Positions 1,472 to 15,427 of a stretch of 64,000 nt of DNA are shown piece after piece (the first letter of the stretch is position 1; every line of letters starts with the position of its first letter). The DNA is from Devosia sp. 67-54 (lineage in GTDB: Bacteria; Pseudomonadota; Alphaproteobacteria; Rhizobiales; Devosiaceae). The DNA is taken from the NCBI RefSeq assembly GCF_001899075.1, contig NZ_MKVA01000006.1, positions 248,001-312,000 of the forward strand, written 5' to 3'. The notes below the pieces were generated by a model. It searched no databases and was not told the DNA's origin. It was given only the letters and a program-made list of their open reading frames with translations. A program made the translations under genes and the position numbers.

Positions 1472-2836
1472 CTAAGTGCTCAGTGTGGTGAACCCCGGGT
1501 TCCATGACGTGTCGAGATTATTCGCGGCAACGGCCTCCCGAAGGTCTGGCGCGCGGAGGTTGAGATCAATGACCTCCAGACCCCCTATGCCGTTAAGGCG
1601 CTTAAATACTTCGGCCAGGACAAGACAGGCGGCGATAACACCGACGAAAGGTGCACCGACGGTCCGGCTTGCCAGCTGGACGAGTCCGCATTCGTCAACG
1701 GCTCCTGACTCTAGTAGAGAGTCATAGGCGGGACTTTTCGGGCTTTCTTTCTCGTCGATGACCTCACCCCATTTTTGCAGACTTGGCACGGTCGCGGGAA
1801 ACGTGTGAATGCGCATGGTCAGATATTCCTGGGGACCCGCACCCAACCCTGCTTCGACCACGAGATCGAAGCCGGCTTCGTCGATTCTTGCTCGCGCCTC
1901 AGAGTTGTCGACGCCGAAAAGCGCAATGCGGGGATCACTCTCACCAAGGAAAAGTCTCCCGTCGAACCGGCGTTCGACAATGTGGGTAACAAATCCTCGT
2001 GCTTCCAACCAGCCGGCCATCTCGCGCGTCTTGAGCCGACGCTCCTGGCTTGCTTGCGTCAACATCGACGTGCTGTCGTTGGAGGACGTCAGCCGGTCAA
2101 AATCCTGCAGTGTGAGTTCCAGTTCGCTCGGTTTTGCGAAAGGAAGCATCGCGAGGGTCCAAAGGTAGGCTTGTCCCAAATGACCCAAACCCACGAGCCA
2201 GAGGCGGCTGGGCAGGACAAATGCGTGCGGACCGCCCTGTGCTGCCCGCCAGTCGATCTCAGGCGACCAGAGCGATAGGCCGACGATACGGCGTGCTGCG
2301 AGGACGTGGCCGCGCAGGTTCTGAAAGACTTCGCTCACGACCATAGCGCCGGCGAGAACCGCGCCGAGAACCTCGAGTTCACCTTCTTCAAGACGCAGCA
2401 GATCATCGACAGGACCGACCGCAGCGCGCCAACCGTCAAACGTCACGCTGAGGACGATGGAGGAGTGACGCTCGTTTTCCTGTTTGCCGAGCAGCACGAT
2501 GGGCATCTGGTCGGTGGGTTGGTCCGAAAGCGTTCCGCCCATGGCAACGACGGCATCGGCAAGCGATTTCTGGCCGCCGGGTAGCTCGATGAGGAGGGGC
2601 GCGTCTGGAAGACCAAACACATGGACGCCGCCGAGTAGAGAGCGCCGTCCGGCGTTGACCATGGTGAGAAGTGCCGCCTGATGAGCCCGCGAAGACGCAA
2701 CGACAGATCCCGTCGAAATGCCGATCTTGTATCGCGCGAAGAGCTCGTAGGCTTCGTCGATAGATGCCGCCTCGCCGGTGTCGAGGGCCATTTTGACGCC
2801 GCGATGCAGATTGTCGGGTTTGGCAAAGTCATTCAT
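1472..2836 (-). CDS. bilD: BilD-like E1 (ThiF-fold) activating enzyme
   Basis: Predicted E1 that adenylates the C-terminal glycine of the ubiquitin-like protein BilA and passes it as a thioester to the E2. The ThiF-type Rossmann core begins around residue 212 with VGLGHLG. The nucleotide-contact segment follows (LQDFDRLTSSND, about 243-253). A second conserved block near the C-terminus has DECGL and VGAPFVG (about 381-399), where Cys383 is a candidate catalytic cysteine. The first 200 residues form an extra N-terminal domain, as in other Bil E1s. The start is set by the ATGA overlap with the end of bilC (454 aa); an open frame upstream to 3094 is antisense noise inside bilC. Last gene of the four-gene operon. 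The family call is strong; the catalytic Cys is inferred. Confidence 0.85.
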   Translation of the reverse strand: MNDFAKPDNLHRGVKMALDTGEAASIDEAYELFARYKIGISTGSVVASSRAHQAALLTMVNAGRRSLLGGVHVFGLPDAPLLIELPGGQKSLADAVVAMGGTLSDQPTDQMPIVLLGKQENERHSSIVLSVTFDGWRAAVGPVDDLLRLEEGELEVLGAVLAGAMVVSEVFQNLRGHVLAARRIVGLSLWSPEIDWRAAQGGPHAFVLPSRLWLVGLGHLGQAYLWTLAMLPFAKPSELELTLQDFDRLTSSNDSTSMLTQASQERRLKTREMAGWLEARGFVTHIVERRFDGRLFLGESDPRIALFGVDNSEARARIDEAGFDLVVEAGLGAGPQEYLTMRIHTFPATVPSLQKWGEVIDEKESPKSPAYDSLLESGAVDECGLVQLASRTVGAPFVGVIAACLVLAEVFKRLNGIGGLEVIDLNLRAPDLREAVAANNLDTSWNPGFTTLST

Positions 2837-3315
2837 CTCAATGTCCCCGTAGAAAGTACTTTCCTTGCGCGCCAGCCGCTGAAGTCCGTCCACTGATGCG
2901 AGCCCTCGTAACGGTAGATGCCGAGGCGATGGCGCCAGTGAGGGCCGCGGGCGAAGTCGGGCACGATCAGTGCGATGTGACCGGCGAGCGCGACCATCGG
3001 ATTGGCGCGATCTGATTGACTCTGCCGTGCTGAGCCCGGGTGCGTGTGGGCGTCGCCGACAACGTTGAGCTGGTTGGTCCTGCAGATATGCCAAAGCCGA
3101 TCAAATGCATCCGCTTCCAGAATGCAGACGCCGGTCGAGTAAGCGTCGGACTGCAGTTCGTCGTAAAAGATCCAGCGCGAAACGGTCCTGACGCCGTCGA
3201 CGTCCTGGCCAAGCAGGAAAGCTCCGGCTTCGTGCTTACCGTCACCGCGACGCCAGAGTTCAGAGAGCCCGTCCAGCCAAAGGCGCCGCGCGAATACCAG
3301 TTTTGAGTCAACCAT
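2833..3315 (-). CDS. bilC: BilC-like JAB/JAMM deubiquitinase
   Basis: Small (160 aa) JAB/MPN metalloprotease, predicted to remove BilA from its targets or to mature it. All JAMM zinc ligands are visible: Glu29 in HEAGAFLLG, then His90 and His92 in DAHTHPG, Ser99 and Asp102 in SQSD. The spacing (HxHP-x5-S-x2-D) is one residue shorter than the commonest form. The chosen start, ATG at 3315, has an AGGAA-type ribosome-binding site and overlaps the end of bilB by 8 bases; an in-frame ATG at 3354 would lie deeper inside bilB. The 3' end overlaps bilD by four bases (ATGA), implying coupled translation. The HTHP motif and the E1/E2 neighbours make the assignment firm. Confidence 0.87.
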
Positions 3316-3796
3316 TTCGCGTTCCTGTATAGTCGTCGGAATTGAGGAGCTCATGGACGGCGCGCAGGTAGAGGGCGAGTCCCTGGTCAGCCCTCCAAAT
3401 CAAATCCGGATGCTCCTGGCGCCAGTTGTCGTGGCCTACGATGCTTTCGCGATCGCACGGCAAGTAAAGGCAAGTGCCGTTCTTCCAGTCGGGCCGAAAA
3501 ACTGCCGGCACACGGGATCGACCATTTGGCCACCTGGCGAAGGGCAGAGGGTTATTGGTCTCGACACTCCAAGGCTGCGCGGTGGGCGGGACACTAGGAA
3601 AGCCCGCGCAGTTGAAGCGGAGCGCGTAGTGCGAGGGGGCACGAGGCCGCGGCGCAGCCGCGACCTCGATGATAACGTAGGGCCAGGCGACGAGAAGAGC
3701 GCGCCACCGGCCAGTATGGACGGCAAGCCGAAATGATGCGGCTTCGAGATAGCTCCTCAAAGCACGTTCATCAGGCAGCAGCAGCGCGGCGTCCAT
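3308..3796 (-). CDS. bilB: BilB-like E2 conjugating enzyme
   Basis: A 162-residue protein in the E2 position of the operon. A beta-rich N-terminal half ([15 protein letters not shown]) is followed by [11 protein letters not shown] and then [13 protein letters not shown] at about 106-116, which looks like an E2 active-site loop; Cys109 and Cys114 are the candidate catalytic cysteines. The tail has GHDNW, HPDLIW and a C-terminal helix. On sequence alone it would be hard to name; the call rests on its place between the ubiquitin-like gene and the JAMM and E1 genes, together with the cysteine loop. It starts 3 bases after the bilA stop and overlaps bilC by 8 bases. Predicted to accept BilA from the E1 and attach it to targets, without a separate E3. 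Confidence 0.75.
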
Positions 3797-3799
3797 CGC

Positions 3800-4297
3800 T
3801 TAGCCTTCGACGCGCTTGCGCGGGACCAGCGTGAAGCTGATCGAGCAAAGGCCTTTTGCGACGAGCGTGCCAATGTGAGTGTCGGGATCGGGACGGTCCG
3901 TCGTGCCGGCCAGTTGCAAGACGTGTTCACTGGCATCGACCGGCGTCATGCCGATTTCCTTGACGAACCACTTCTTGACGCGCGCGACGGTGGCGGCGGG
4001 GCTGAACTTGTCCTGCTCGCGGCGGGCATTGAAAGCGACGGTAACATCGACACGGCGGCATCGGTGGACGATAACGCGATCTTTGTCCTTGCCGCCCTGG
4101 GCGAGGAACGGCTTATCGTTGTCGAGGGGATCATCGCGATCCTCGACGTAGACTAGGGCTTCCTTCTCGTCACCCTGGAACAAGCCACGCTGGAGCGCGG
4201 CCTTGATGATGTCCTTGACGGACGTGTGCTCGCCAACCTCGATGATCTCGATCTGGCGAGATGCCTCGGCCTGCGCGAAAATGGAAAGGCTCGACAT
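3800..4297 (-). CDS. bilA: BilA-like tandem ubiquitin-fold modifier (ISG15-like)
   Basis: A 165-residue protein that reads as two beta-grasp domains in tandem: about 1-77 (VKDIIKAALQRGLF as the first helix, ending VIVHRC) and about 78-165 (VARVKKWFVKEIG as the second helix). It ends in RKRVEG, so a glycine is the very last residue, the arrangement needed for E1 activation without trimming. Two fused ubiquitin-like domains in the first position of an A-E2-JAMM-E1 operon match BilA of the Bil system, which in other bacteria modifies phage particles and impairs infection. The ATG at 4297 was chosen for its AGAGGTAG ribosome-binding site; the frame is open to 4348 but without a better start. First gene of its operon or fourth of a longer one. 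Confidence 0.82.
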   Translation of the reverse strand: MSSLSIFAQAEASRQIEIIEVGEHTSVKDIIKAALQRGLFQGDEKEALVYVEDRDDPLDNDKPFLAQGGKDKDRVIVHRCRRVDVTVAFNARREQDKFSPAATVARVKKWFVKEIGMTPVDASEHVLQLAGTTDRPDPDTHIGTLVAKGLCSISFTLVPRKRVEG

Positions 4298-4379
4298 TTC
4301 TACCTCTTGAGTGCGTGTCACGCTGAGATGCGCAACTACCCTCCTCAAGCCGGCTAAAACGAGAATCGGAAATTCCTCG

Positions 4380-4454: not shown

Positions 4455-7400
4455 TCAGGCCCTGGCCAATCCGGTCGATGGGCAAATGAAGTAGTAAGGG
4501 CAGGTGGGACATTCGCGCCCGCTCGGCTTTGGGTCAAACCGTCCAGCGTCGATTTGAGCGAACGCTTCGCTTACCTCGGTCGTGATTTCCGCATCGGGCT
4601 TTTTGGCGCCTTCGACGCGATCGCCGGTTAGCAGCGACACATGTTCGAATATCACCGACTTTGAAGAATGATCGCGACTGACGGCATTGAACAGAAGCTT
4701 GTCGCGAGCGCGCTGGGTTTCTTTTTTTGCGAGCCGCCCGGCCTTCAGGCGCTGTATCACCACTTTGTTGTCTCGGAGCTGGATATTGTCCGCCTGCAAG
4801 AGGATACGTCTTGTCCCGACGTCGACGTGGCGAGTGACGTCGAGGTTTTCGCCAGCCATCTCGCCAGCCGCCACTGCGAGCATCCTACGGGCGGTGGTCT
4901 GATAGACCTCGCTGTGGGGATGGTCGGTCGGGCCCTGCTCGGACCACCGAGAGTTGAACTGTTGGTCCAGCTCGTTGGTCAACGCCGAACCCGGGGCGCC
5001 GTTCATCCATTTGAGAGTTGAACGGACGACGGAGAGAAAGCGAAGGTATGGCCCCCGCTCGGAGCTTGATCTGAGGCTCAGAACGTCCTGGTAGTAAAAG
5101 CGTCTGGGGCACTTTTGATAGCGTTCGATGGCTTCAGCCCCCACGCCATTGGCGGTGTCGAGAGTGCCAGCCAGGGGGGCGAAGGCAGGCTCAGCGCGCC
5201 CAGTACTGATCCAATTGGCACCCGTCGGCTCCGGCATCTTGGCCTGGAGGGACTCGAGCAGCGACGATGGATTGGGTCTTGGTTGGCCCCCGTAGCGCAT
5301 CGATCGTGACAAACCCAGATGGTCGCGGGCTCGTGAAAGGGCGACGAAGAAGAGGCTCTTTTCCTCCATCTCCGGCGACATCAACGGATCGGGCTCGATC
5401 ATCCCATCAGGAGGCGGGCACGGCACGGCTCCGCCCTTCAGAGGAAAGTAACTGGGGCTCAAAGAGGGTACGTGCACCGAATTGAACTCAAGGCCTTTGC
5501 TCGCGTGAACGGTCATGAGTTTGACAGCATCGATGCCCGCGGCTGCCGCTGGTAGCCGACGAAATTCCTTCTCTTCATCGAGGATCTCAAGGCGTCGAAC
5601 GTGTTCGAGAAAGTCGCGTTTGGGATCGGTCTTTGACTTTCGGCGGTGCTCGTACGTTACCTGCAACAGCTGGTACATCGCGAGCCGGCGCTGCTGACCG
5701 GCGACGGACGCCTCACGGAGGGTATCCTCGCGGACCGCTCCTTTGTTGAACAGATAGTCGGAGAGAAGCCAATGTGGCGATGTGCCGAAATGCACACCGG
5801 CGAGATCGGCAGCCAACCGCGCCAGCCGTTGCCGACCGATGGCGGAAATTCCCTCAATGGGCGAGAGGTCCCTTAGCGCCTTCAGGAGCGATGTTTTGCT
5901 CTCCCTGATCGCATGCAACAGCGTGAGAATGTCGTCGACCGGGATATCGTATCTTGGCCACTGCCCAACACGAAACAGTCCGAGACCGTCACGTTCCGAG
6001 GCGACCGACAGCAAGCTCAGCATGTCGCGGACCTCGGGTCGTTCGAAGAAGTCGCCGAAGTATAGGGTCGGGATACCCGCGCGCTCGAGGTGCTCTGTAA
6101 GCCTCACCAGAGTCGAATGGGCGCGCGCTAGCACCGCATGATCCTTGAGCGAGCCGCCGCTGGTCCGCTGAGTCTCGATGCGCCCGGCGATGCCCTCGTA
6201 CTCTGCCTCTCGCGTTGCCGCCACGTTATAGACGACAGTTCCAGTTGTTTCGCCGCGATCCGGTCGTAGAGCCGGCGGTTCGTCGCCGGGGGCCACAGCT
6301 TTCATTGATCGCCCGAAGGTCTCGAAGGTCGAGACGATTTGCCCACCGGAGCGATAGTTGATTTCAAGATCCGTATGACCGGCACCGGCAAAGCGATCGC
6401 GAAACCGGGCAAAATTGACGGGCGAGGCACCGCGGAAGCGATAGATAGACTGTTTGACGTCACCCACGACCCACGGACCGCGTTGCGGGTCGACGAGGAG
6501 ACTGAGAAAGACCCCGCTGGCCCGATTGGTGTCCTGGTATTCGTCAACGAGGACGTTCCGGTACTGTGACCGTACAGACTGCTGGACCTCGTGGTTTGAC
6601 GCCAGTATCTCGATGGGGCGGCCGATCAAGTCGCCGAAATCGAGCCAGCCACGTTTACGCAATTCTCGATCATAGATCTCGTAGATCCGTGCAACTTCCG
6701 CCGCGCGAGCACTTGCCTCCGGATCGACATCCTTCATCGCAGCGGCGAGTTCGGCATAGTGCGCGGGACCGCAGAGCTCATCTTTGGCACGACTGATTGC
6801 GCCTAGAACGGATTTCAGAGAGCGGAGCGGCTCGTTGAGCTCGAAGTAGTAGTTGAGATCCAACTGCGGCAGCAGTTCCTCAAGGAGGAACAGCTGGTCC
6901 GAGCGGCTGGCAATGTAGGGTGCATCGTTCGGCCCCGCCCAATAGAGGCGCATCAACTCGAGGCCAAAGGCGTGAAAGGTCCCCGTCCAAACGCCGGTGC
7001 TTGCGTCCCCAAGGTTGTCCCTTACGCGTGTTGCGAGGTCCTGCGCCGACTCGTTGGAATAGGTGAGGGCCAGGATTGAGGTCGGTGCTTCGCCACTATG
7101 GATCAGATGCGCGATCCGACGGACGAGTGTTCGAGTCTTGCCCGTGCCCGGTCCGGCGCGCACCTGGTGGGGACCAATCGGCGCCTTGATAGCGCGCTCC
7201 TGTGACGGGTCAGGTTTGGGTTCGGGTCGCTTTTCCTTGGACGGCGGATCATCCGGAAGGAGAAGCGCGTCGGCAAGTTGCTGCAGGACTAAAGTCTCCG
7301 GCACCTCCAGCCGACGGGCGAGGCCGGTGGCGGTCGCTCCGGATGCGACGAACGCCGCACTCAGCTTCTCGCGCGGCAGCAACAGCTCGCGGGCAAACAC

Positions 7401-7799
7401 ATTAGCCTGCGCTTCGCGCCGTTGCTTTGGACTATAGGAGTCGTCTTCCCCAACTGCCGACTCTTCGGGCTCCGCAGGGGTCCAAGCGTCGAAGTCATCT
7501 TCGTGGCAGCGGGCGGCATCGTTGTGCAATCGAATATGCGCGAATTCATGTGCGATGTAAAAGTGCTGGAGGTCTGTTGAGAGGTCCTTGGAATAGAGGA
7601 TCCGGTTTCCATCTGGATCAAAGAGCGCCTGAGCTCCGTCGAGAAGGGTGCTCTCCTGGGCAAGCGGCATCAGCGCGGTACCAGTTGCAACCATAGCTTT
7701 GCGGATGAGTTCGCTCGCTGAGATGAGCTGGGACTCGCCTGCTGCGAGTTCGTCGTGCCACTGCTGGGCACGGAGGCGTATCTGAAGCCAGCTGCTCAC
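4455..7799 (-). CDS. ImmA/IrrE metallopeptidase fused to UvrD/AddA-type helicase with nuclease-like C-terminus
   Basis: A 1114-residue three-part protein. Residues about 1-190 are an ImmA/IrrE-like zinc peptidase: HEFAH at 84-88 and the family's third motif EAQANVFARELLLP, with ligand Glu near 129. A superfamily 1 helicase follows: Walker A GPGTGKT (about 216-222), motif II DEYQDT, motif III GDVKQSIYRFRG and later helicase motifs (VHASKGLEF; ALSRARDHL). The C-terminal 200 residues resemble the PDDEXK_1 domain of AddA/RecB-like proteins, ending in CPTCPYYFIC; the expected catalytic D-x-K appears as RLK, so nuclease activity is doubtful. The start is a GTG in a GTGA overlap with the HTH gene; an ATG at 7835 lies inside that gene. 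The peptidase likely cleaves the neighbouring HTH protein, as in ImmA/ImmR pairs (inference). Confidence 0.85.
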   Translation of the reverse strand: MSSWLQIRLRAQQWHDELAAGESQLISASELIRKAMVATGTALMPLAQESTLLDGAQALFDPDGNRILYSKDLSTDLQHFYIAHEFAHIRLHNDAARCHEDDFDAWTPAEPEESAVGEDDSYSPKQRREAQANVFARELLLPREKLSAAFVASGATATGLARRLEVPETLVLQQLADALLLPDDPPSKEKRPEPKPDPSQERAIKAPIGPHQVRAGPGTGKTRTLVRRIAHLIHSGEAPTSILALTYSNESAQDLATRVRDNLGDASTGVWTGTFHAFGLELMRLYWAGPNDAPYIASRSDQLFLLEELLPQLDLNYYFELNEPLRSLKSVLGAISRAKDELCGPAHYAELAAAMKDVDPEASARAAEVARIYEIYDRELRKRGWLDFGDLIGRPIEILASNHEVQQSVRSQYRNVLVDEYQDTNRASGVFLSLLVDPQRGPWVVGDVKQSIYRFRGASPVNFARFRDRFAGAGHTDLEINYRSGGQIVSTFETFGRSMKAVAPGDEPPALRPDRGETTGTVVYNVAATREAEYEGIAGRIETQRTSGGSLKDHAVLARAHSTLVRLTEHLERAGIPTLYFGDFFERPEVRDMLSLLSVASERDGLGLFRVGQWPRYDIPVDDILTLLHAIRESKTSLLKALRDLSPIEGISAIGRQRLARLAADLAGVHFGTSPHWLLSDYLFNKGAVREDTLREASVAGQQRRLAMYQLLQVTYEHRRKSKTDPKRDFLEHVRRLEILDEEKEFRRLPAAAAGIDAVKLMTVHASKGLEFNSVHVPSLSPSYFPLKGGAVPCPPPDGMIEPDPLMSPEMEEKSLFFVALSRARDHLGLSRSMRYGGQPRPNPSSLLESLQAKMPEPTGANWISTGRAEPAFAPLAGTLDTANGVGAEAIERYQKCPRRFYYQDVLSLRSSSERGPYLRFLSVVRSTLKWMNGAPGSALTNELDQQFNSRWSEQGPTDHPHSEVYQTTARRMLAVAAGEMAGENLDVTRHVDVGTRRILLQADNIQLRDNKVVIQRLKAGRLAKKETQRARDKLLFNAVSRDHSSKSVIFEHVSLLTGDRVEGAKKPDAEITTEVSEAFAQIDAGRFDPKPSGRECPTCPYYFICPSTGLARA

Positions 7800-8431
7800 G
7801 GTGGACCTGTTCCCTCCGCTATTGCTCTGCGCCACGTCGCCTTGTCAGTGTCGGACAGAGAAGAGCGCGACAATGCCTCCTCAAACGTCTCGGTGGCGAG
7901 CTGAGCCTTCTTTCGGCTTTTTAGTAGTCCTGGTCGTGACGACGCCATCTTCGGCAAAGCGAGCGCCATCCATATTTCATCGATAGCCACTGCGAGCACG
8001 GCCGCAAAGCTGCGGGCCAGCAAACGAGGGATGCCCTCAACAGGAACAATTCGACCTCGATCCAGCTTCATGAACATCTCGTCGTCGATGCCAACTCGGC
8101 TGGCGACGTCTGCGTCGGACAAGCCCGCGTTGTGCGCCATTTGAGAAAGGCGCAGCGGCGAAGCGGAGTTTGCCGTGGCTTCGAGAGAGTGAAGACGGTT
8201 CAAAGCCTCGCTGACAGCGAGGTTCGCGAAATGTTCGACGTCAAGGCTGGGCGCATCGCCATCCTCCTCCGCTTGGAAGGCCAGGGAGGCAAAGAAATCG
8301 GCGAGCTCGTCGGTGAAGGCGGGGTATCTCTTCGACCAAATTTCCAGGCTCTCATAGGACGGGACGATCTCGCCGTCCTCGAGCATGAGCGCAAGGACGT
8401 CATCGAATGTAGTAGGTTCAGGGCGGGTCAT
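7796..8431 (-). CDS. HTH (XRE-like) protein, probable partner/substrate of the IrrE-helicase fusion
   Basis: A 211-residue protein with two parts. The first 80 residues have a helical pattern including SLEIWSKRYPAF and an acidic stretch. Residues about 94-127 form a Cro/C1-type helix-turn-helix (LSQMAHNAGLSDADVASRVGI), followed by a helical tail. It overlaps the upstream sigma-like gene by ATGA (start at 8431, preceded by GGAG) and the downstream IrrE-helicase gene by GTGA, so all three are translationally coupled. XRE-type proteins next to IrrE peptidases are usually repressors cleaved by the peptidase on DNA damage. That role here is inferred from context. Because the sigma-like gene precedes it, an anti-sigma-like function is the main alternative. 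Confidence 0.7.
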   Translation of the reverse strand: MTRPEPTTFDDVLALMLEDGEIVPSYESLEIWSKRYPAFTDELADFFASLAFQAEEDGDAPSLDVEHFANLAVSEALNRLHSLEATANSASPLRLSQMAHNAGLSDADVASRVGIDDEMFMKLDRGRIVPVEGIPRLLARSFAAVLAVAIDEIWMALALPKMASSRPGLLKSRKKAQLATETFEEALSRSSLSDTDKATWRRAIAEGTGPP

Positions 8432-9222
8432 TGTATTTCTCCGAACGCCTCTCTCATCTCCTTGATTGCTTGGTTGATCCAATTCTGGACCGTTCTCGCC
8501 TTGGACGGACTAAGACCGAAGTAACCCGTCACAGTTGGAACTGATGGGTCTGAGTGAGTCATCGGCCATCTACGGAGCTTCCTCAGGATGAATGCCTTTC
8601 GATGGCTTTCGTCCTTAACTGCCCCGAGGAGTTCTCGCAGCCGGGAGCGGCTGGCCTGGCGGATCATCACGGCCAGCGCGCTTTCGGCATCTTCGTCTAC
8701 CAGCTTGTCGAGGGGGTCCGATCCGCTGATGGTCGTTGAGGCGGTTGCGACCATATGCGGCTTGGGTTTGTCTTTGAATTTGGGGTGTTGTTTGACCGTC
8801 TGCGTGACGATCACCCGCTTGAAGTCGACCTCGAGATACTCCGACATCCTGGTGGGCTTTTCAGGAAACAGAAGTTTCACGAGATAGACGATGACGGTTG
8901 TGGAGATCACTTCGACGTCGGTCGGACTGAATCCCCGGCTATTCCATTTCACGATCTCGCCAGCCCGCGTCATGATTTCGCGAACCAGCTTTCCCCTGAG
9001 TTCGCCCTGCCTGCCGCCGTTGCGGGCAAAGTAGACAAACGTCTGGGTCTTCCATTTGCCCGGCGCCTCAAGAAGGATGGCGCCGGTTGGGTCGATGCCG
9101 AGCACCTCGGCGATCGCGCGCTCGACGTCGTCGAAGCGGGCGTAAGGGCGCCCGTCCTCACGCGTCATGGTCAATGGCGCCGGGGTGAGTATGAGGTCAT
9201 CTGATGTCGAGAAGTCGCTCAT
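8428..9222 (-). CDS. Sigma-factor-like protein (region-4-type C-terminal HTH)
   Basis: A 264-residue protein. The last 85 residues (IRQASRSRLRELLGAV, then VTGYFGLSPSKARTVQNW) read like a sigma-70 region 4: a helical lead-in followed by a helix-turn-helix with GLSPSKARTV as turn and recognition helix. The middle (SEYLEVDFKRVIV) is similar in feel to the region-2/linker part of small sigma factors but is not convincing. It leads a coupled operon with the HTH protein and the IrrE-helicase fusion, and 157 bases separate that operon from bilA. Possible roles are a dedicated sigma factor or transcription activator for the island; a DNA-binding subunit with no polymerase contact is equally possible. 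The region upstream is AT-richer and may hold its promoter. Confidence 0.6.
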   Translation of the reverse strand: MSDFSTSDDLILTPAPLTMTREDGRPYARFDDVERAIAEVLGIDPTGAILLEAPGKWKTQTFVYFARNGGRQGELRGKLVREIMTRAGEIVKWNSRGFSPTDVEVISTTVIVYLVKLLFPEKPTRMSEYLEVDFKRVIVTQTVKQHPKFKDKPKPHMVATASTTISGSDPLDKLVDEDAESALAVMIRQASRSRLRELLGAVKDESHRKAFILRKLRRWPMTHSDPSVPTVTGYFGLSPSKARTVQNWINQAIKEMREAFGEIQ

Positions 9223-10143
9223 AACCCCTTACAAGCCGCCGCTTTGGCGAGTCGGAAATCCGTGGGAAGATTTTTTCGGGTGTAGCGGCAGGCAATTCTG
9301 CCGGTGATTTGATCGGGTCTGAAAATAGAGGCGCTACGGTCGCAAAGCGCGAAAATGCACTTAACTGCTGCGGCACTGGCGCACCGTCGCAGCAATCAAT
9401 ATAGCGATTTTGTAGTTCGAGTCCCGTGAGTAGGCGCCGAAAATACTCCGAATCCGAAGGCGTCGTTTGGAAAGGTTAGGCAAGTGGACGGACGAGGGGC
9501 AGGTTCTTCGGTCCTACACAGTGATGACGCGCGCTGGCGGACCCTCGTCCAGACCAGGGCGCACGACGACGGTGTGGCCGGGGCACGGCGGGAGTATAAG
9601 CCGGCTAGCGCGGTGCCTGCTTGGCACGAAACGATCCGGCCGATCGAAGAACTGATCAACGCACCTCTTTTTACCATCGACGATGAGGCGCTCGTCGCAA
9701 GTTGCTCGGCATAAGAGCGTCTATTTCCGATCGGGCTAAGTGAACTACGACTTGCTCGAGTTCGTGCTAGCGCCGCCGCGTATGTCGTCGCGCGCGAGGA
9801 CCGCGAAACAGTGCTGCACGACGCCGCGTCGAGGATGCCACACGCCGATTTCAGTTTTGCTCGCGGCGGACAACGCAGATGAGCATCTCAAGAGCTTGGT
9901 CGCCGAGCCATCGGGAACTCCGGACTGGGCAAGGCCGTGGCGCGCGCACTGGGACGAACAGCTTCAAGTCAGTGACAACGGATTGTCGCCCGCTTTGGAT
10001 AAGTACACAGATCAGAGCGGCATACCTTAGTTTGAAGACTATCGAATAGGGCGATGTCTGCCTTGACTTAGGCGCGATTAACGGCAGGATGCGCGCGGGT
10101 TCTAATTAAGACTTTGATGTAAGATTATTTCACCGGAAGTTCG
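9223..10143. other. 920-base divergent spacer with a possibly decayed gene
   Basis: The spacer separates the minus-strand sigma/HTH/IrrE-helicase operon from the plus-strand metallopeptidase operon, so it should hold both promoters. Plus-strand frame 1 is open from the ATG at 9484 except for one TAA at 9712, and continues to a TGA near 9897. The stretch around 9630-9880 looks protein-like (RPIEELINAPLF before the stop, YVVAREDRETVLHDAA after it), which suggests a decayed gene. A 96-codon ORF at 9740-10030 in another frame overlaps it and does not look coding. The last 80 bases before the metallopeptidase ATG are AT-rich and are the likely promoter zone. No clear operator repeats were found. 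Confidence 0.35.
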
Positions 10144-11871
10144 ATGCGGAACGTCCTGGGGACTCGTCATGGGCTGAGCGCGTTTCGAACGCTCACGATC
10201 GTCGCGCAGGATCCGTCAGTGCGGACCGCCGATGGCAAAGTCCTGCTGGCAAAAGTTTCGATACCGGCTGAGCAGTTGTTGCCCGGGCCTGCCGGATATC
10301 GCGTCAGCGTGGTGGACTATGATGCTACGCGCAATGCCCTCTACACGCCGCTCGATCTTGGGCCGGGGCTGGAAGAACCCAGCGATGCTATTGCGGCGGT
10401 CAGATCTGACCGGGCGCTGATGTCAGACCCTAGGTATCACGCACAGAATGTCTACGCGATCGTGATGCGAATCCTCGCCAGATTCGAGCTCGCTCTGGGG
10501 CGTCGGGTGCCGTGGGGATGCGCGGGCCATCAGCTCTATATTTCGCCACACGCCTTCTGCGAGCCCAACGCGTTCTATTCTCGCGAGGATTGTTCGCTGT
10601 TTTTTGGCTACTTTACGTCGTCTCAGCCTTCCGGCGAGACTGTGTATTCCTGCCTCGCGCATGACGTCGTCGCGCATGAAACCACGCACGCGCTTCTTGA
10701 TGGGTTGCGCCGTGGTTTCCTCGACCGTTCGTCGCTGGACCAGGCCGCGTTTCACGAAGGCTTCTCGGATATCGTCGCGCTCCTCTCGGTCCTATCGCTG
10801 ACGGAGATCGTCAGTACTGTTCTGGACGGGCGGCCAGAAGATCCCTTGATCCGGGCGGACCTGCTCACCAAGGAGAAGCTGAAGGAATCAACCCTTTTTG
10901 GTTTGGCCAACCAGATGGGGGAGGAGCTGTCGGGTGTCCGCGGACAAGCGCTGCGACGTTCGGTCGAACTGCCGCCCGGAAAGCGCTACGCTGACAAGAA
11001 AGAGTTCCAGGAGGAACACCGTCGCGGCGAGCTTCTCGTTGCTGCCGTGTTGAATTCGTTCCTTGAGATTTGGCTCAGGCGGCTCGAGAAGATTGGCACT
11101 ATCTCGGCGGGAAAGAAGGATCGAGGTCTTGTCGTCGAGGAGGGCGCCAGGGCCGCTGATCATCTGCTGACCATCGTCATTCGCGCAATCGACTATTGCC
11201 CTCCTGTCGACCTCTCATTCTCTGACTTCCTGTCTGCTCTCTTGACAATCGATCGAGAGGTGGTTCCCGACGACCGTTACGGCTATCGCGAGGCACTGCT
11301 CAAGAGCTTCCGAGACTATGGGGTAGAGCCTGCCCCAGATGCCGATACGGACGGCACATGGAAGAGATGGGAGCGAGAGATGATCTATAGCCGCACCCAT
11401 TTCGAGTCGATGCTCAGAGATGAGGAGGAAATGTTTCGCTTCATCTGGGAGAACCGAACGAACCTCGACCTATCCGAGCACGGACACATCGAGGTGCGAT
11501 CGGTTCGGCCGAGCATGCGCATCGCGCCCGATGGTTTCATCCTGCGTGAGACGGTTGCCGAGTACGTCCATTCAGTCACCGCGAGCGCCGAAGAACTTCG
11601 CGACGATTTTGGCATCGCGGTCCCTGAGGGCCTTCCACTATGGCGCAATATCAAGCTGGCAGGCGGGGGCACGCTCATTTTCGATGAATACGGTCAGCTA
11701 AAATACAAGGTCGCAAAGGGTCTTGTTGAATCGGAGGCAGATAAGACCCGGCAAGGGGCAAAGCTTAAGCAGCTTTTCGAGTTGGGTTTCTTCGACGGCC
11801 CCGTGGGCGACCTGCCGCTACTGGCCCAGCTGCACAGCCGCATCGGTCAGCTTCGAAGGCTCAAGTCATGA
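10144..11871 (+). CDS. Gluzincin-type zinc metallopeptidase (defence-associated, family not named)
   Basis: A 575-residue protein with a gluzincin active site: HETTH at 178-182 (two zinc-binding His and the catalytic Glu), then HEGFSD at 204-209 supplying the third ligand, Glu205. That 22-residue spacing between motifs resembles thermolysin-like (M4) and related peptidases. There is no signal peptide or membrane segment, so it probably works in the cytoplasm. Beyond the catalytic core the N-terminal 130 residues and the C-terminal 300 residues (acidic and helical) are unrecognised. It overlaps the next gene, a ComEC-like metallo-beta-lactamase protein, by ATGA, so the two are probably made together. 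A proteolytic effector or activator in a defence module is inferred from context. Confidence 0.75.
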   Translation: MRNVLGTRHGLSAFRTLTIVAQDPSVRTADGKVLLAKVSIPAEQLLPGPAGYRVSVVDYDATRNALYTPLDLGPGLEEPSDAIAAVRSDRALMSDPRYHAQNVYAIVMRILARFELALGRRVPWGCAGHQLYISPHAFCEPNAFYSREDCSLFFGYFTSSQPSGETVYSCLAHDVVAHETTHALLDGLRRGFLDRSSLDQAAFHEGFSDIVALLSVLSLTEIVSTVLDGRPEDPLIRADLLTKEKLKESTLFGLANQMGEELSGVRGQALRRSVELPPGKRYADKKEFQEEHRRGELLVAAVLNSFLEIWLRRLEKIGTISAGKKDRGLVVEEGARAADHLLTIVIRAIDYCPPVDLSFSDFLSALLTIDREVVPDDRYGYREALLKSFRDYGVEPAPDADTDGTWKRWEREMIYSRTHFESMLRDEEEMFRFIWENRTNLDLSEHGHIEVRSVRPSMRIAPDGFILRETVAEYVHSVTASAEELRDDFGIAVPEGLPLWRNIKLAGGGTLIFDEYGQLKYKVAKGLVESEADKTRQGAKLKQLFELGFFDGPVGDLPLLAQLHSRIGQLRRLKS

Positions 11872-13145
11872 AGCCAACTCAGGTAAGAATACGCGCATAC
11901 CAAGTTGGTTTCGGCGACTGCTTCCTTCTGACGGTCTTCTACGACGACGAAAGCGCAAGGCACGTGCTCGTCGACTTTGGAAGCACAGGCTTCCCGCCGG
12001 GAGTGAAGGGTAATCGACTAGCAGCAATCGCCAGGGACATTCGCGATACGACGGGCGGCAAACTCACCGCCGTGGTCGCCACGCACCGGCATAAGGATCA
12101 CATTTCGGGTTTTGCGACGAATAAGAGCAAGACTGGTGCCGGCGATATCATCGCCGCGCTCAAGCCCGAGTTGGTCATACAGCCCTGGACCGAGGATCCT
12201 GCGCTCGCACCGAAAGCTACTGGACCAAAGGTCGCGAAGGGCGGCGCGAATCTCCAGGCCCTCCATGTGCAGTCGCTCGATGCGATGCAGACAGTGGCGG
12301 AACGAATTCTTGCCGAGACGAAGGCGAGCAGGTCGCTGGTCAGGGAGACCAGGGCGGAGCTAACAGCGGTTGCGGAGGTGAACGTCAAGAACCAGTCGGC
12401 AGTCGACAACCTTAGAGATATGGTCCCCAAGTCAGGCCGAGAGTATCTCTTCTTCGGCGAGCCCACTCAGTTGCAAGACCTCCTCCCGGGGTCGAAGATC
12501 GAAGTTCTCGGCCCGCCAACGGTCGACCAGCACGCGGCCGTGGCTAAGGAAAAGGACTGGGATCCGGACGAGTATTGGCTGCGGTTCTCGGAGCAAACGA
12601 CACCGACGGGAGAAGATGGAGCTCTGTTTCCTGGCCACGTGGTCGGGCGCAAGCAGTACCGTTTCCCGATCGATTCTCGATGGCTCATTTATCGCGCCAA
12701 GCGACTGCGTGGCGAGCAGATGCAGGCGATCGTTACCAATCTCGACAATGCTCTAAACAACACGAGCGTCATTCTATATCTGCGTATTGGCAAGAAGGCC
12801 TTCCTGTTCCCCGGGGACGCTCAAGGCGAGAACTGGGAGTACGCGTTGTCGAAGCCAAATATCAGGACGATGCTTAAGAAGGTCGATGTCTATAAGGTCG
12901 GCCACCATGGCAGCCGCAACGCGACGCCAAAGACGCTTTGGGGTCTTATGACCGGATCGGACAACTCTAAAAAGGCGGAGTTCACGACGGTCATGTCAAC
13001 GATGGAAGGCAAGTATGGGGACACGGAGGAAACTGCGGTCCCACGCGGTACGCTCGTGACGGCCCTGAAGAAGAAAAGCACTCTGCACACTACTCAGGAC
13101 ATCCATGCTGAGGATCTGTATTTCGATCTCACGATTGATGTCTGA
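11868..13145 (+). CDS. ComEC/Rec2-like metallo-beta-lactamase-fold hydrolase
   Basis: A 425-residue MBL-fold protein. The zinc motif is THRHKDH (His73, His75, Asp77, His78). The other typical blocks are present: LFPGDAQGENW (metal-bridging Asp near 309) and KVGHHGSRNATP (C-terminal His). The order and the GHHGS signature match the C-terminal MBL domain of ComEC/Rec2, but there are no membrane helices, so it is a free-standing cytoplasmic enzyme, probably acting on nucleic acid or a nucleotide. About 200 extra residues sit between the first and later metal motifs, including a long helical segment. Its ATG lies in an ATGA overlap with the metallopeptidase; the helicase gene starts 38 bases after its stop. 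MBL plus protease pairs occur as effectors in some defence operons (for instance next to Avs/STAND proteins), but no NTPase sensor is present here. Confidence 0.83.
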   Translation: MKPTQVRIRAYQVGFGDCFLLTVFYDDESARHVLVDFGSTGFPPGVKGNRLAAIARDIRDTTGGKLTAVVATHRHKDHISGFATNKSKTGAGDIIAALKPELVIQPWTEDPALAPKATGPKVAKGGANLQALHVQSLDAMQTVAERILAETKASRSLVRETRAELTAVAEVNVKNQSAVDNLRDMVPKSGREYLFFGEPTQLQDLLPGSKIEVLGPPTVDQHAAVAKEKDWDPDEYWLRFSEQTTPTGEDGALFPGHVVGRKQYRFPIDSRWLIYRAKRLRGEQMQAIVTNLDNALNNTSVILYLRIGKKAFLFPGDAQGENWEYALSKPNIRTMLKKVDVYKVGHHGSRNATPKTLWGLMTGSDNSKKAEFTTVMSTMEGKYGDTEETAVPRGTLVTALKKKSTLHTTQDIHAEDLYFDLTIDV

Positions 13146-13183: not shown

Positions 13184-15427
13184 GTGAAGCGCTTCGAGCC
13201 CTTTCATGGCCATTATCCAAAGTCTGTTCGCGCTTGGGTGAATGCACGTCGCTGGACGAAGTTTCGGGAAATTCAGCGCCTGGCGATCGAGAGTATTCCG
13301 ATTGATCCTGACAGCCCGATTCCAGACCTAGTTCTCGAAGCGGAGACTTCGAGTGGGAAGACCGAAGCGGCATTTCTGCCACTTATGGCTCGTCTGGAAA
13401 ACAATCGGCAGCCAAAATCCGGCTTTGCCATCTTGTATGTCAGTCCCCTGAGAGCGCTGATCAACGACCAGATGACTCGAATTGGTCCTCTGGCCGAGGC
13501 CGTTTCTTTGAAGGCCCACGGGTGGCACTCGGACATCAAGATCTCGAGCAAGAAGGCTGCTCGAGCAACGAGGAGTGGTGTCCTGCTCACGACACCGGAG
13601 TCACTTGAAGCGTTTGCTATCGGGGCGAGTGAAGAAGGCTCCATGTTCGACGCTCTGACGAGTATTGAGTGCGTTGTTATCGACGAACTCCATGCCTTTT
13701 TTGACAGCCCCCGCGGGCGGCACCTGCAGTCCTTGCTACACAGGCTTGAGCTCCTATCGCGCCGGAAGATTCCACGTATCGGCTTGTCGGCGACTTTGGG
13801 CGATGCGGATCGCAGTGCGGCGGCCGTGCTGCGCCCCGAGGACTATGCGGCGGTCAAGGTCATCCGTTCATCTGGAGAGGAGGCGAGGCCCGCGACGATC
13901 AGACTAAGGGCGTTTGTCGACCCGGATGAGAAACGAATCGAAGGCGATGAACCGGCCGAGGAGATCGTCGACCTCATCGCACGGCGGTTAATCGAGGACT
14001 TTTCCGCAGACAAGCGAGGGCTGGTCTTTGCGAATTCGCGCGCGACGGTTGAGCACCTCGTGGAACGCTGTCAGGCCGAGGCCGGACCGACCGGGATCCG
14101 CTTTGAACCGCACCACTCGTCAATTCCTGCCGCCGATCGTCGCAAAGTTGAGGACTGGATGCGCGGGGAGGGCACCGATGCCCCGGCCCGGATGGTCGTC
14201 GTTGCTACCAACACGCTTGAACTTGGAATAGACATTGGTCGAGTCGAACGAGTGGTCCAAATCGATCCGACCTTCACCGTCTCAGCGTTACGCCAGCGTG
14301 TGGGGAGGTCCGGACGACGCGGCGATTCCCACCCTACCGGTCTATTGTATTTGCGGGAGGGGCGCGTGACTGAGGCCTCGCACCCCTTGGATCGGTTGCG
14401 GCTACGGACCTTTCAGTCGGCGGCGACTGCCCAACTTTCGATGGAAGGTCAATTTGAGCAGCCGAACGCTGCCGACCTTCAACTATCGACGCTCTTTCAT
14501 CAGGTAATCTCATGGGTGAGGCAGGCGACCTTTGCGACCACCGCCGAGCTCTATGATGGCCTGATCGAGAGTGGGCCGTGGCGCGCAACTCGGAACGTGA
14601 TCAGTCCGAGCTTCTTTGCTCGGTTCCTCGAAACCATGGCAACGGGCGAGAGCCGAGCGATCGAGGTTGTTGAGACCAGCTGGCAGCTGGCGGACACGCC
14701 AAGAAATAAGCGGCATGCTTTTACGGTCTTCAGCAGCCCTCCCGAATACATCGTCTCGGCCGGCGGCGTAGTGATTGGTCGGTTGCCGATGACAGTCGCG
14801 TATCGCGTTGGAGACACGTTTGTTCTCAACCGGGGCCGGTGGCGCGTTGTCAATGTCAGCGACGAGCGACGAGCGCTCACCGTAACCAAGGCACCGACGG
14901 CCGGTGCTCCAAGGTTTGGAGGCTCTCCACAAACGCCTAGCGGCGTAGTCAACCAGCGGATGCTGCAACTCTACAGGGGCAAGGATGTCTCAGCGCTCTC
15001 TGAAGAAACATCGTTCCAGAGTTTGGTTGATGAGGGACGGCAGGCATTCCGCGATCTCAAACTAGACACGCAGCGATTGCTCGTGGCCGGCAAGGACGTC
15101 CTAATCTTTCCGTGGCGAGGCGCTCGCGCCTTGACGACCCTCACGCTGATGCTGCGCCGGGAGGGGCTGCGGGCGTCGGCTTCGAACTTCGCCGTGCTTG
15201 TCGAGGGAACTGACGTTGGCGAGGTGGTCCGAGTACTAGGCCGGTTGGAGTCGGAAAAACTACCTGAGCTTGACGAGCTCGCCCGGGAAGCTCGTCAGTT
15301 GCGGAGCGACCGTTTTGACCGCAGCCTCATTCCCTACCATCAGAGGCTGGCGTTCGCGCACCGCCATCTTTCAGGTGATCGATTCGCGGAGTTGGTGAAG
15401 GAATTGATCAAGCGGTCGGGACTCTAG
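13184..15427 (+). CDS. Lhr-like DEAD/DEAH-box superfamily 2 helicase
   Basis: A 747-residue SF2 helicase. The first RecA-like domain has Walker A AETSSGKTEA (about 53-62), LYVSPLRALIND, TTPES, motif II DELH (167-170) and motif III GLSATLG. The second has a long motif IV-VI region ending in TNTLELGIDIG and QRVGRSGRRG, the signature of the Lhr family. The C-terminal 300 residues follow the Lhr-type winged-helix/beta arrangement only loosely. It starts with GTG preceded by GAGGGG, 38 bases after the MBL gene, so it is probably the third gene of that operon. It faces the nuclease gene tail to tail. A second, quite different Lhr-like helicase lies in the chromosomal part (34016-36595). Confidence 0.83.
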   Translation: MKRFEPFHGHYPKSVRAWVNARRWTKFREIQRLAIESIPIDPDSPIPDLVLEAETSSGKTEAAFLPLMARLENNRQPKSGFAILYVSPLRALINDQMTRIGPLAEAVSLKAHGWHSDIKISSKKAARATRSGVLLTTPESLEAFAIGASEEGSMFDALTSIECVVIDELHAFFDSPRGRHLQSLLHRLELLSRRKIPRIGLSATLGDADRSAAAVLRPEDYAAVKVIRSSGEEARPATIRLRAFVDPDEKRIEGDEPAEEIVDLIARRLIEDFSADKRGLVFANSRATVEHLVERCQAEAGPTGIRFEPHHSSIPAADRRKVEDWMRGEGTDAPARMVVVATNTLELGIDIGRVERVVQIDPTFTVSALRQRVGRSGRRGDSHPTGLLYLREGRVTEASHPLDRLRLRTFQSAATAQLSMEGQFEQPNAADLQLSTLFHQVISWVRQATFATTAELYDGLIESGPWRATRNVISPSFFARFLETMATGESRAIEVVETSWQLADTPRNKRHAFTVFSSPPEYIVSAGGVVIGRLPMTVAYRVGDTFVLNRGRWRVVNVSDERRALTVTKAPTAGAPRFGGSPQTPSGVVNQRMLQLYRGKDVSALSEETSFQSLVDEGRQAFRDLKLDTQRLLVAGKDVLIFPWRGARALTTLTLMLRREGLRASASNFAVLVEGTDVGEVVRVLGRLESEKLPELDELAREARQLRSDRFDRSLIPYHQRLAFAHRHLSGDRFAELVKELIKRSGL

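Follow-up and report, generated by a model that had tools for sequence, protein, structure and literature searches.

Three overlapping genes on the minus strand of a 64,000-nucleotide stretch (hereafter the window) of the 4.2 Mb genome of Devosia sp. 67-54 probably form a private on-switch for the bil operon, a ubiquitin-like operon that follows them on the same strand. By fold and profile, gene 1 encodes an extracytoplasmic function (ECF)-type sigma factor; gene 2 encodes a helix-turn-helix (HTH) protein, and gene 3 a fusion of an IrrE-type M78 peptidase with a UvrD-type helicase (Table 1). In the reading that we favour, the sigma factor would serve the operon and would be freed through cleavage of the HTH protein by the peptidase that the helicase carries. 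The HTH gene starts at an ATG (8431) inside an ATGA that it shares with the sigma stop codon, and the fusion at a GTG (7799) inside a GTGA shared with the HTH stop codon; both four-base overlaps recur in the nearest relatives (loci L009 and L010), and the bilA ATG (4297) follows the end of the fusion by 157 bases. This layout reproduces what an earlier note on this DNA had described, and the operon behind it is a complete four-gene Bil set (ubiquitin-like protein, E2, JAB and E1), with strong PADLOC matches to BilA-D. An alternative fusion start at GTG 7835 would yield 1126 aa; the relatives begin at the position of 7799 instead.

The trio recurs as a unit in other bacteria, where it stands next to more than one kind of ubiquitin-like operon. 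From the best 40 of 820 plasmid records with a match, we opened 16 stretches, chosen by fusion match only, and each of the 16 carries two small genes at the positions of the sigma and HTH genes. A Bil operon lies downstream in 8/16 and a multiubiquitin-ThiF-DUF6527 operon in 6/16; on plasmid L019 the latter stands just upstream on the other strand, and the stretch from plasmid L015 leads into an IS66 element. A scan of genomes, one per species, gave at least 80 loci, whose neighbours were identified with profiles made from the window and plasmid genes; the counts that follow cover loci among the matches listed. Sixty-five loci hold a fusion with the peptidase motif, 63 of them with 1.5 kb of upstream and 55 with 2 kb of downstream sequence. 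The sigma and HTH genes both lie directly upstream of the fusion in 59/63 loci, with and without Bil, and the HTH gene does so in 61/63; the co-occurrence that the earlier note proposed to look for is therefore found, and the fusion seldom lacks the HTH neighbour. A ubiquitin-like operon is adjacent in 46/55 (44 downstream, 2 only upstream on the other strand), with 16 Bil and 30 multiubiquitin operons among the 46. Fifteen further loci have no peptidase motif: 11 of these (L094-L104) are ordinary UvrD loci, none of which (0/11) has a ubiquitin-like neighbour, while L082 and L083, where no such motif was seen, are cut at the contig end and have a multiubiquitin operon. Set against the ordinary UvrD loci, the counts of 59/63 and 46/55 make the association of trio and operon more than chance. 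We rejected the idea that the trio is specific to Bil, since 30/46 associated loci are multiubiquitin loci; judged by gene neighbourhood, the operons that the module serves are of two or more kinds.

Record titles place the trio in Proteobacteria, Chloroflexi, Nitrospirota (lineage checked), Acidobacteria, Armatimonadetes, Myxococcus, Verrucomicrobia and Gemmataceae, several of these records being metagenome bins, in which contigs can be misplaced; it is also present on a Leptolyngbya plasmid. Among the multiubiquitin operons are types with a DUF6791-ThiF E1 (L024) and with a fused JAB-ThiF protein (L037), and L076 combines multiubiquitin with a separate, weakly JAB-like gene below cut-off. 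Within a sample of 297 genomes of the host's order, the sigma-like protein found only the window's own copy and the HTH protein found relatives in four genomes, the window's own included, one result of that search being a second sigma-HTH-fusion set (L006). The HTH protein has no relative among the viral contigs searched; the fusion matches 21 loci there, and only one of them, L105, covers most of the peptidase part; it is an incomplete fusion of 44% identity from a short viral-collection contig.

That the sigma factor has a private promoter, before bilA and before its own gene, is well supported by a comparison of two regions, the gap that precedes the ubiquitin-like operon and the 300 bases upstream of the sigma gene. 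A first alignment of upstream regions against gaps gave a hint only (own mean 8.97, cross 8.23; scores of at least 14 in 2/58 vs 0/232). Training on the gaps of 56 loci gave the motif cTTTCCGGTT-N14-CGATT, with box starts 23 bases apart, equal to the spacing from the -34 start to the -11 start of sigma H elements as given in an excerpt of PMC6411747, and it exceeds 12 bits in 15/24 Bil gaps and 27/32 multiubiquitin gaps. As a guard against circularity, we applied the model from one group to the other, taking as the level 95% of each sequence's own 40 dinucleotide shuffles: the multiubiquitin-gap model placed 15/24 Bil gaps above it and the Bil-gap model 27/31 multiubiquitin gaps. The motif learned on Bil gaps lies above this level before the sigma gene in 14/24 Bil loci. 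In the 15 Bil loci with both sites, the pair from one locus shares 12.87 of 15 core bases, compared with 10.24 between loci, a resemblance reached in 0/10,000 permutations; for the window the site-pairing script took another upstream site than the motif search did, which lowers the 12.87.

The subfamily to which the window belongs has the motif TTTCCGAYTC-N11-GGCTTG. This pattern, written from the two window sites themselves, matches the 4.2 Mb genome exactly at only two sites, one before the sigma gene and one before bilA, with one further match at two mismatches, and its reversed form has none in that genome. A search of the window alone at up to 3 mismatches returned 2 matches, a number equalled in 30/100 shuffles and hence uninformative, so the weight of the promoter evidence in the window lies in the exactness of both matches and in the genome count. 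In promoter 1, 9 bases separate the end of the -10 box from the sigma ATG (with like distances in L009, L010, L023 and L025), such that the sigma transcript would be almost leaderless. A second sigma subfamily (8 loci) has a different motif, CTTCCGGTTTTT...TTCGCT, again at both places: learned on the gaps, it lets the upstream regions of L017, L067, L069, L084 and L165 (5/8) beat all 200 shuffles, and the remaining three give p 0.015 (L078), 0.065 (L070) and 0.335 (L166). Two loci outside the training set carry the main motif as well, L158 at both places (18.7 and 21.6 bits, 0/200 shuffles) and L015 directly behind the fusion (13.4 bits, 0/200 shuffles), even though IS66 displaces the operon there. 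In the Bil loci without the trio it is absent (L159 p 0.94, L161 p 0.235, L160 p 0.585). Partial Mantel correlations over 45 loci tie the promoter to the sigma factor given the HTH protein (0.25), and far less to the HTH protein given the sigma factor (0.03). The boxes, TTTCCGGTT / CGATT or TTTCCGAYTC / CTTG, are not the AAC -35 and CGT -10 hallmark boxes of ECF promoters, a requirement that later ECF classifications drop according to a passage of PMC8103513. A palindromic operator common to both intergenic regions was rejected as the sole explanation, the element being two-box and non-palindromic.

The earlier note had called gene 1 sigma-like, and its predicted structure (model m8b68b2867b43; predicted local distance difference test (pLDDT) score 85.3) bears this out. 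In a fold search, in which small helical domains can match by chance, the model aligned with sigma4 of 5uxx (Z 9.2, 2.1 Å over 66 residues), with sigma2 of 2z2s (Z 7.9, 2.6 Å over 81 residues) and with 5or5 (Z 8.0, 3.5 Å over 93 residues). These matches place sigma2 at residues ~54-159 and sigma4 at ~188-264, the only promoter-binding domains seen outside residues 1-53, which are hardly covered. A profile of 50 sigma homologues, compared with the sequences of solved structures, found AlgU (2.5e-6) and sigma E (2.4e-5); some LuxR-type HTH proteins match it too, through the HTH alone. The window protein has no Pfam match above cut-off. Among five sigma-like relatives scanned, Sigma70_r4 is above cut-off in two (L012 and L014) and GerE in L023, with no Pfam domain above cut-off in L019 and L069. 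Since both small window proteins lack Pfam matches above cut-off, the sigma and HTH identities rest on relatives and predicted structures.

The peptidase and the motor of the fusion look active and its nuclease looks dead. Pfam recognises Peptidase_M78 (2e-14), UvrD-helicase (1e-59), UvrD_C (9e-29) and PDDEXK_1 (5e-7), so that the peptidase-helicase fusion of the earlier note is confirmed and a C-terminal PD-(D/E)XK nuclease domain, which that note overlooked, is added; NCBIfam matches remain below cut-off (PcrA, 273 of 911 bits). We aligned 72 fusions, 17 of them from the window and plasmids and 55, of more than 1000 aa and picked for HExxH, from genome contigs. Besides the HExxH that inclusion had required, the third-ligand Glu is present in 72/72, as are Walker A, DExQD and the motif VI Arg of the helicase. 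The RecB-type nuclease domain keeps its four iron-sulfur-type Cys, as in AddB, in 71/72. At the acid position of nuclease motif III, assigned by eye, an Arg stands in 51/72 and a Lys in 5/72. We rejected the fusion as an active nuclease of the AddAB kind because this catalytic acid is lost; a peptidase and motor that appear active beside a nuclease that appears dead fit the needs of a sensor or switch, not those of a DNA-destroying effector.

The AlphaFold model of gene 2 (pLDDT 88.6) shows helices (residues 10-88), then an XRE-type domain (~91-161) and, last, a C-terminal tail, in agreement with the HTH protein that the earlier note had described. The fold matches of the XRE domain are the usual XRE family, including three partners of M78 peptidases: CapH (7t5u, Z 7.4), ImmR (7t8i, Z 7.0) and DdrO (6rnz, Z 6.8). 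They agree with a role as peptidase substrate and do not prove it, and we regard gene 2 as the candidate substrate and inhibitor. Its tail, with the majority pattern KADQKP...TFEEAV, is conserved as strongly as the HTH (mean information 1.64-1.78 vs 1.66 for the HTH itself), which makes it a reasonable region for a candidate cleavage site. The fold search listed nothing for the N-terminal region and the tail, and gives no evidence of a new fold there.

Bil operons that lack the full trio indicate how it relates to simpler regulators. A BilD search of plasmids gave 38 records, of which we opened six more. L157 has the trio with its sigma gene apparently broken by IS256, and L158, a Cupriavidus plasmid, has sigma factor, HTH protein and Bil with the fusion missing; at 5236-6249 on the reverse strand, in the fusion's place, L158 has a gene with no Pfam match that looks PIN-like by eye. 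L159 pairs a stand-alone M78 gene with a divergent HTH gene, L161 has a divergent HTH-M78 protein, and L156 and L160 have neither the trio nor an HTH/M78 regulator. The same search of 385 genomes of the class gave 84 with matches, mostly weak, and we examined the loci in the seven further genomes whose BilD match has E of at most 1e-16. Complete Bil operons are the window's own and those of G665 and G633, all with the trio, that of G310 with HTH and M78 genes and that of G546 with an HTH-M78 protein; G616 has a more distant Bil operon with an M78 gene and no recognised HTH partner, G619 and G369 being too fragmentary to classify. Altogether, the eight opened Bil loci without the full trio comprise four with an HTH/M78 regulator, one with an M78 gene, one with sigma factor and HTH protein, and two with none of these. 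Since HTH/M78 or M78 genes stand before some other Bil operons, in the same place, the trio appears to be one version of control by M78 peptidases, and these operons favour the earlier note's idea of an HTH/peptidase switch upstream of Bil.

Such regulators would also suit simple derepression like that of CapH and CapP, in which the HTH protein would repress the bil promoter until the peptidase cuts it and the sigma-like protein would be an accessory activator or co-repressor. The nearness of the XRE fold to the DNA-binding domains of CapH, ImmR and DdrO points the same way, as do the leaders between promoter 2 and the start codon, which often fold unusually well (z below -1.5 against shuffles in 28/43, mean -1.97; two control stretches, 4/44 and 2/44) and might contain an operator palindrome. 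However, a consensus structure of 19 multiubiquitin leaders had no shared pairs, and the leader fold could reflect either an operator or a hairpin of the RNA close to the ribosome site. The shared motif, moreover, is two-box and non-palindromic, has ECF-like spacing and tracks the sigma factor more than the HTH protein, and gene 1 has both sigma2 and sigma4 folds, so that derepression appears unlikely to us. With a private promoter before both bilA and the sigma gene, the switch is likely positive, working through sigma activation, and its main actor is probably the sigma factor rather than an HTH repressor.

Sequence comparison supports the module as such, with an intact peptidase and an intact motor, a dead nuclease, the sigma fold and the paired private promoters. 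By analogy with PprI-DdrO and CapP-CapH, we infer further that gene 2 restrains the sigma factor, that the peptidase cuts gene 2 and that the motor makes this depend on DNA: single-stranded DNA (ssDNA) activates PprI to cut DdrO in an excerpt of PMC10904395, and a passage of PMC13373217 reports ssDNA as the activator of CapP. The ECF-type sigma factor would recognise the two-box promoter, both the copy ahead of the ubiquitin-like operon and the one that many Bil loci have ahead of the sigma gene itself, while the XRE-fold protein, whose gene overlaps the sigma gene translationally, would hold it off, either as an anti-sigma factor or bound at the promoter. When ssDNA or broken DNA arises from damage or phage replication, the motor of the fusion would engage it and the IrrE peptidase would then cut the gene 2 protein; the freed sigma factor would transcribe bilABCD and, in loci with promoter 1, also the operon that encodes it, in a positive feedback. 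The DNA-damage switch of Bil that the earlier note had proposed survives here as a dedicated regulatory module conserved with Bil, and we part from it over simple derepression and Bil-specificity. Tentatively, and with less assurance than for the switch itself, the trio could represent a new signalling class, in which a sigma factor silenced by an XRE partner is freed by a peptidase on a nuclease-dead motor and DNA translocation triggers transcription, this being the common switch of at least two ubiquitin-like families in several phyla, with a two-promoter regulon in the window genome.

Several results weigh against the sigma switch. In Foldseek searches neither the gene 1 model (best E-value 6.4e-3) nor the gene 2 model gave an E-value under 0.001, and the HTH of the window's gene 2 is below the Pfam cut-off. 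The reverse strand of the Bil upstream regions, used as a control, is above the 95% level in 6/24 with 1-2 expected. The gap-learned motif precedes the sigma gene in just 6/32 multiubiquitin loci, so autoregulation is not general and only the conjugation operon would be sigma-dependent there. It is mostly absent from six trios without a ubiquitin-like operon (the best, in L079, has p 0.015 and lies far upstream) and from the divergent L019 and L064 and from L157. The sigma factor and the fusion are poorly separated as correlates of the promoter, partial Mantel values over the 45 loci being 0.14 for promoter and sigma factor given the fusion and 0.08 for promoter and fusion given the sigma factor. 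Finally, L158 keeps sigma factor, HTH protein and both promoters without the fusion, and 9/55 fusions have no ubiquitin-like operon nearby (L036, L042, L057, L068, L072, L079, L086, L091 and L093). Six of these nine come from Chloroflexi, Armatimonadetes or Acidobacteria, one is damaged and five keep the sigma and HTH genes; the trios of L079, L091, L068, L072 and L036 may have another target of control or represent an older form.

These operon-less fusions, five of which retain both small genes, would be expected if the trio were a defence or repair system in its own right, a helicase-peptidase effector merely travelling with ubiquitin-like operons; superfamily 1 (SF1) helicases are common in defence, and PADLOC GajB models match the fusion. 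We nevertheless consider this improbable, because the catalytic acid of the nuclease is missing, the promoter ties the trio to the operon behind it, gene order and the short gap are kept across several phyla, and PADLOC assigns no system to the sigma-like and HTH proteins. L158, with sigma factor, HTH protein, both promoters and bil in place, would in turn suit a peptidase that acts on the conjugation machinery or its products, next to an independent regulator made of sigma factor and HTH protein. The sigma and HTH genes, however, stand directly before the fusion in 59/63 loci, including five of the nine without an operon, and a Bil operon already has its own JAB peptidase, which makes this the least probable explanation of all.

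Control of immune operons by M78 peptidases is already known, and what we rate as new here is the addition of a sigma factor and a DNA motor. Like CapH and CapP, the trio combines an HTH-fold protein with a neighbouring IrrE-type peptidase, ahead of an operon for immunity or ubiquitin-like conjugation (cyclic oligonucleotide-based antiphage signalling system (CBASS), Bub), but its peptidase is fused to a helicase and a dead nuclease instead of being a stand-alone M78 protein, a sigma factor is added, and its HTH protein has extra N- and C-terminal parts. With PprI/IrrE-DdrO of Deinococcus it shares an M78 peptidase acting on an XRE-fold regulator, ssDNA being the trigger there (PMC10904395, in part), whereas PprI has a GAF-like domain and no helicase, DdrO is a repressor and no sigma factor takes part. 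CapK with CapS and CapW, DNA-damage regulators of Bub, Bil and CBASS, precede the same kinds of operon but work by kinase-STAS or WYL chemistry, with neither a peptidase-helicase nor a sigma factor; no WYL, STAS or GHKL domain matched the three trio proteins in Pfam up to E 1. Among Bub operons, 219/544 have CapW or CapH with CapP and 59/544 CapK with CapS, according to an extract of PMC13373217. Sigma factors of the RpoE-RseA type resemble gene 1 in combining sigma2 and sigma4 and in having a neighbour as candidate inhibitor, and ECF pairs often autoregulate positively and are released by proteolysis (in a passage of PMC8103513); the candidate protease of the trio, in contrast, is soluble, IrrE-type and helicase-borne, and its boxes are not AAC/CGT. 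AddAB/RecB and GajB of Gabija share the UvrD-type motor but not the N-terminal peptidase, and the fusion has lost catalytic motif III. In line with the earlier note, which knew of no described system with this layout, we found no description of the trio in the open papers searched, a search that left outside the founding Bil and Bub papers and the supplementary operon lists of PMC13373217; in that paper, 'UvrD' occurs in three places, all about the E. coli repair gene.

The trio would extend the control of ubiquitin-like operons by another chemistry, a sigma factor with a private promoter that is probably freed by a helicase-mounted protease. Its promoter is a direct handle, in that it predicts the controlled genes and permits a reporter test of the signal. 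One controller for Bil and multiubiquitin operons suggests that both respond to one kind of threat, which may be foreign or broken DNA, and the combination of sigma factor, HTH protein and fusion is a marker for finding more ubiquitin-like systems.

Table 1. Coordinates of the trio, its predicted promoters and the bil operon in the window.
Feature	Position	Strand	Description and basis
Sigma gene (ECF-type sigma factor)	9222-8428	-	264 aa; fold search, profile search, Pfam in relatives
HTH gene	8431-7796	-	211 aa; helical N-terminal region, XRE-type HTH and C-terminal tail; AlphaFold model
Fusion gene	7799-4455	-	1114 aa; IrrE/M78 peptidase - UvrD helicase - degenerate PD-(D/E)XK; Pfam
Peptidase_M78 (IrrE) domain	7275..7625	-	Pfam; HEFAH and third-ligand Glu intact
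UvrD/PcrA-like SF1 helicase	5235..7208	-	Pfam; Walker A, DExQD and motif VI Arg intact
RecB/AddB-type nuclease domain	4479..5135	-	Pfam PDDEXK_1; four Fe-S-type Cys kept, motif III acid lost
Predicted promoter 1, before sigma gene	9232..9258	-	TTTCCGACTC-N11-GGCTTG; exact genome match
Predicted promoter 2, before bilA	4346..4372	-	TTTCCGATTC-N11-GGCTTG; exact genome match
bil operon leader with inverted repeat	4298..4345	-	folding z -1.71
bilA, ubiquitin-like protein	3800..4297	-	PADLOC BilA 9e-56
bilB, E2-like	3308..3796	-	PADLOC BilB 1e-63
bilC, JAB-type deconjugase	2833..3354	-	PADLOC BilC 2e-62
bilD, E1-like	1472..2836	-	PADLOC BilD 2e-163, scanned as the longer open reading frame 1472-3094

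Elsewhere in the window, a thermolysin-like peptidase (weak, Pfam 0.045) and a metallo-beta-lactamase (MBL)-fold protein matching LmuA and Avs1a models are encoded at 10144-13145 on the plus strand, and this pair is probably another defence locus. Behind it, at 13184-15427 on the same strand, lies a gene for a 747-aa protein that is DEAD/DEAH helicase-like by eye and part of a possible defence island.

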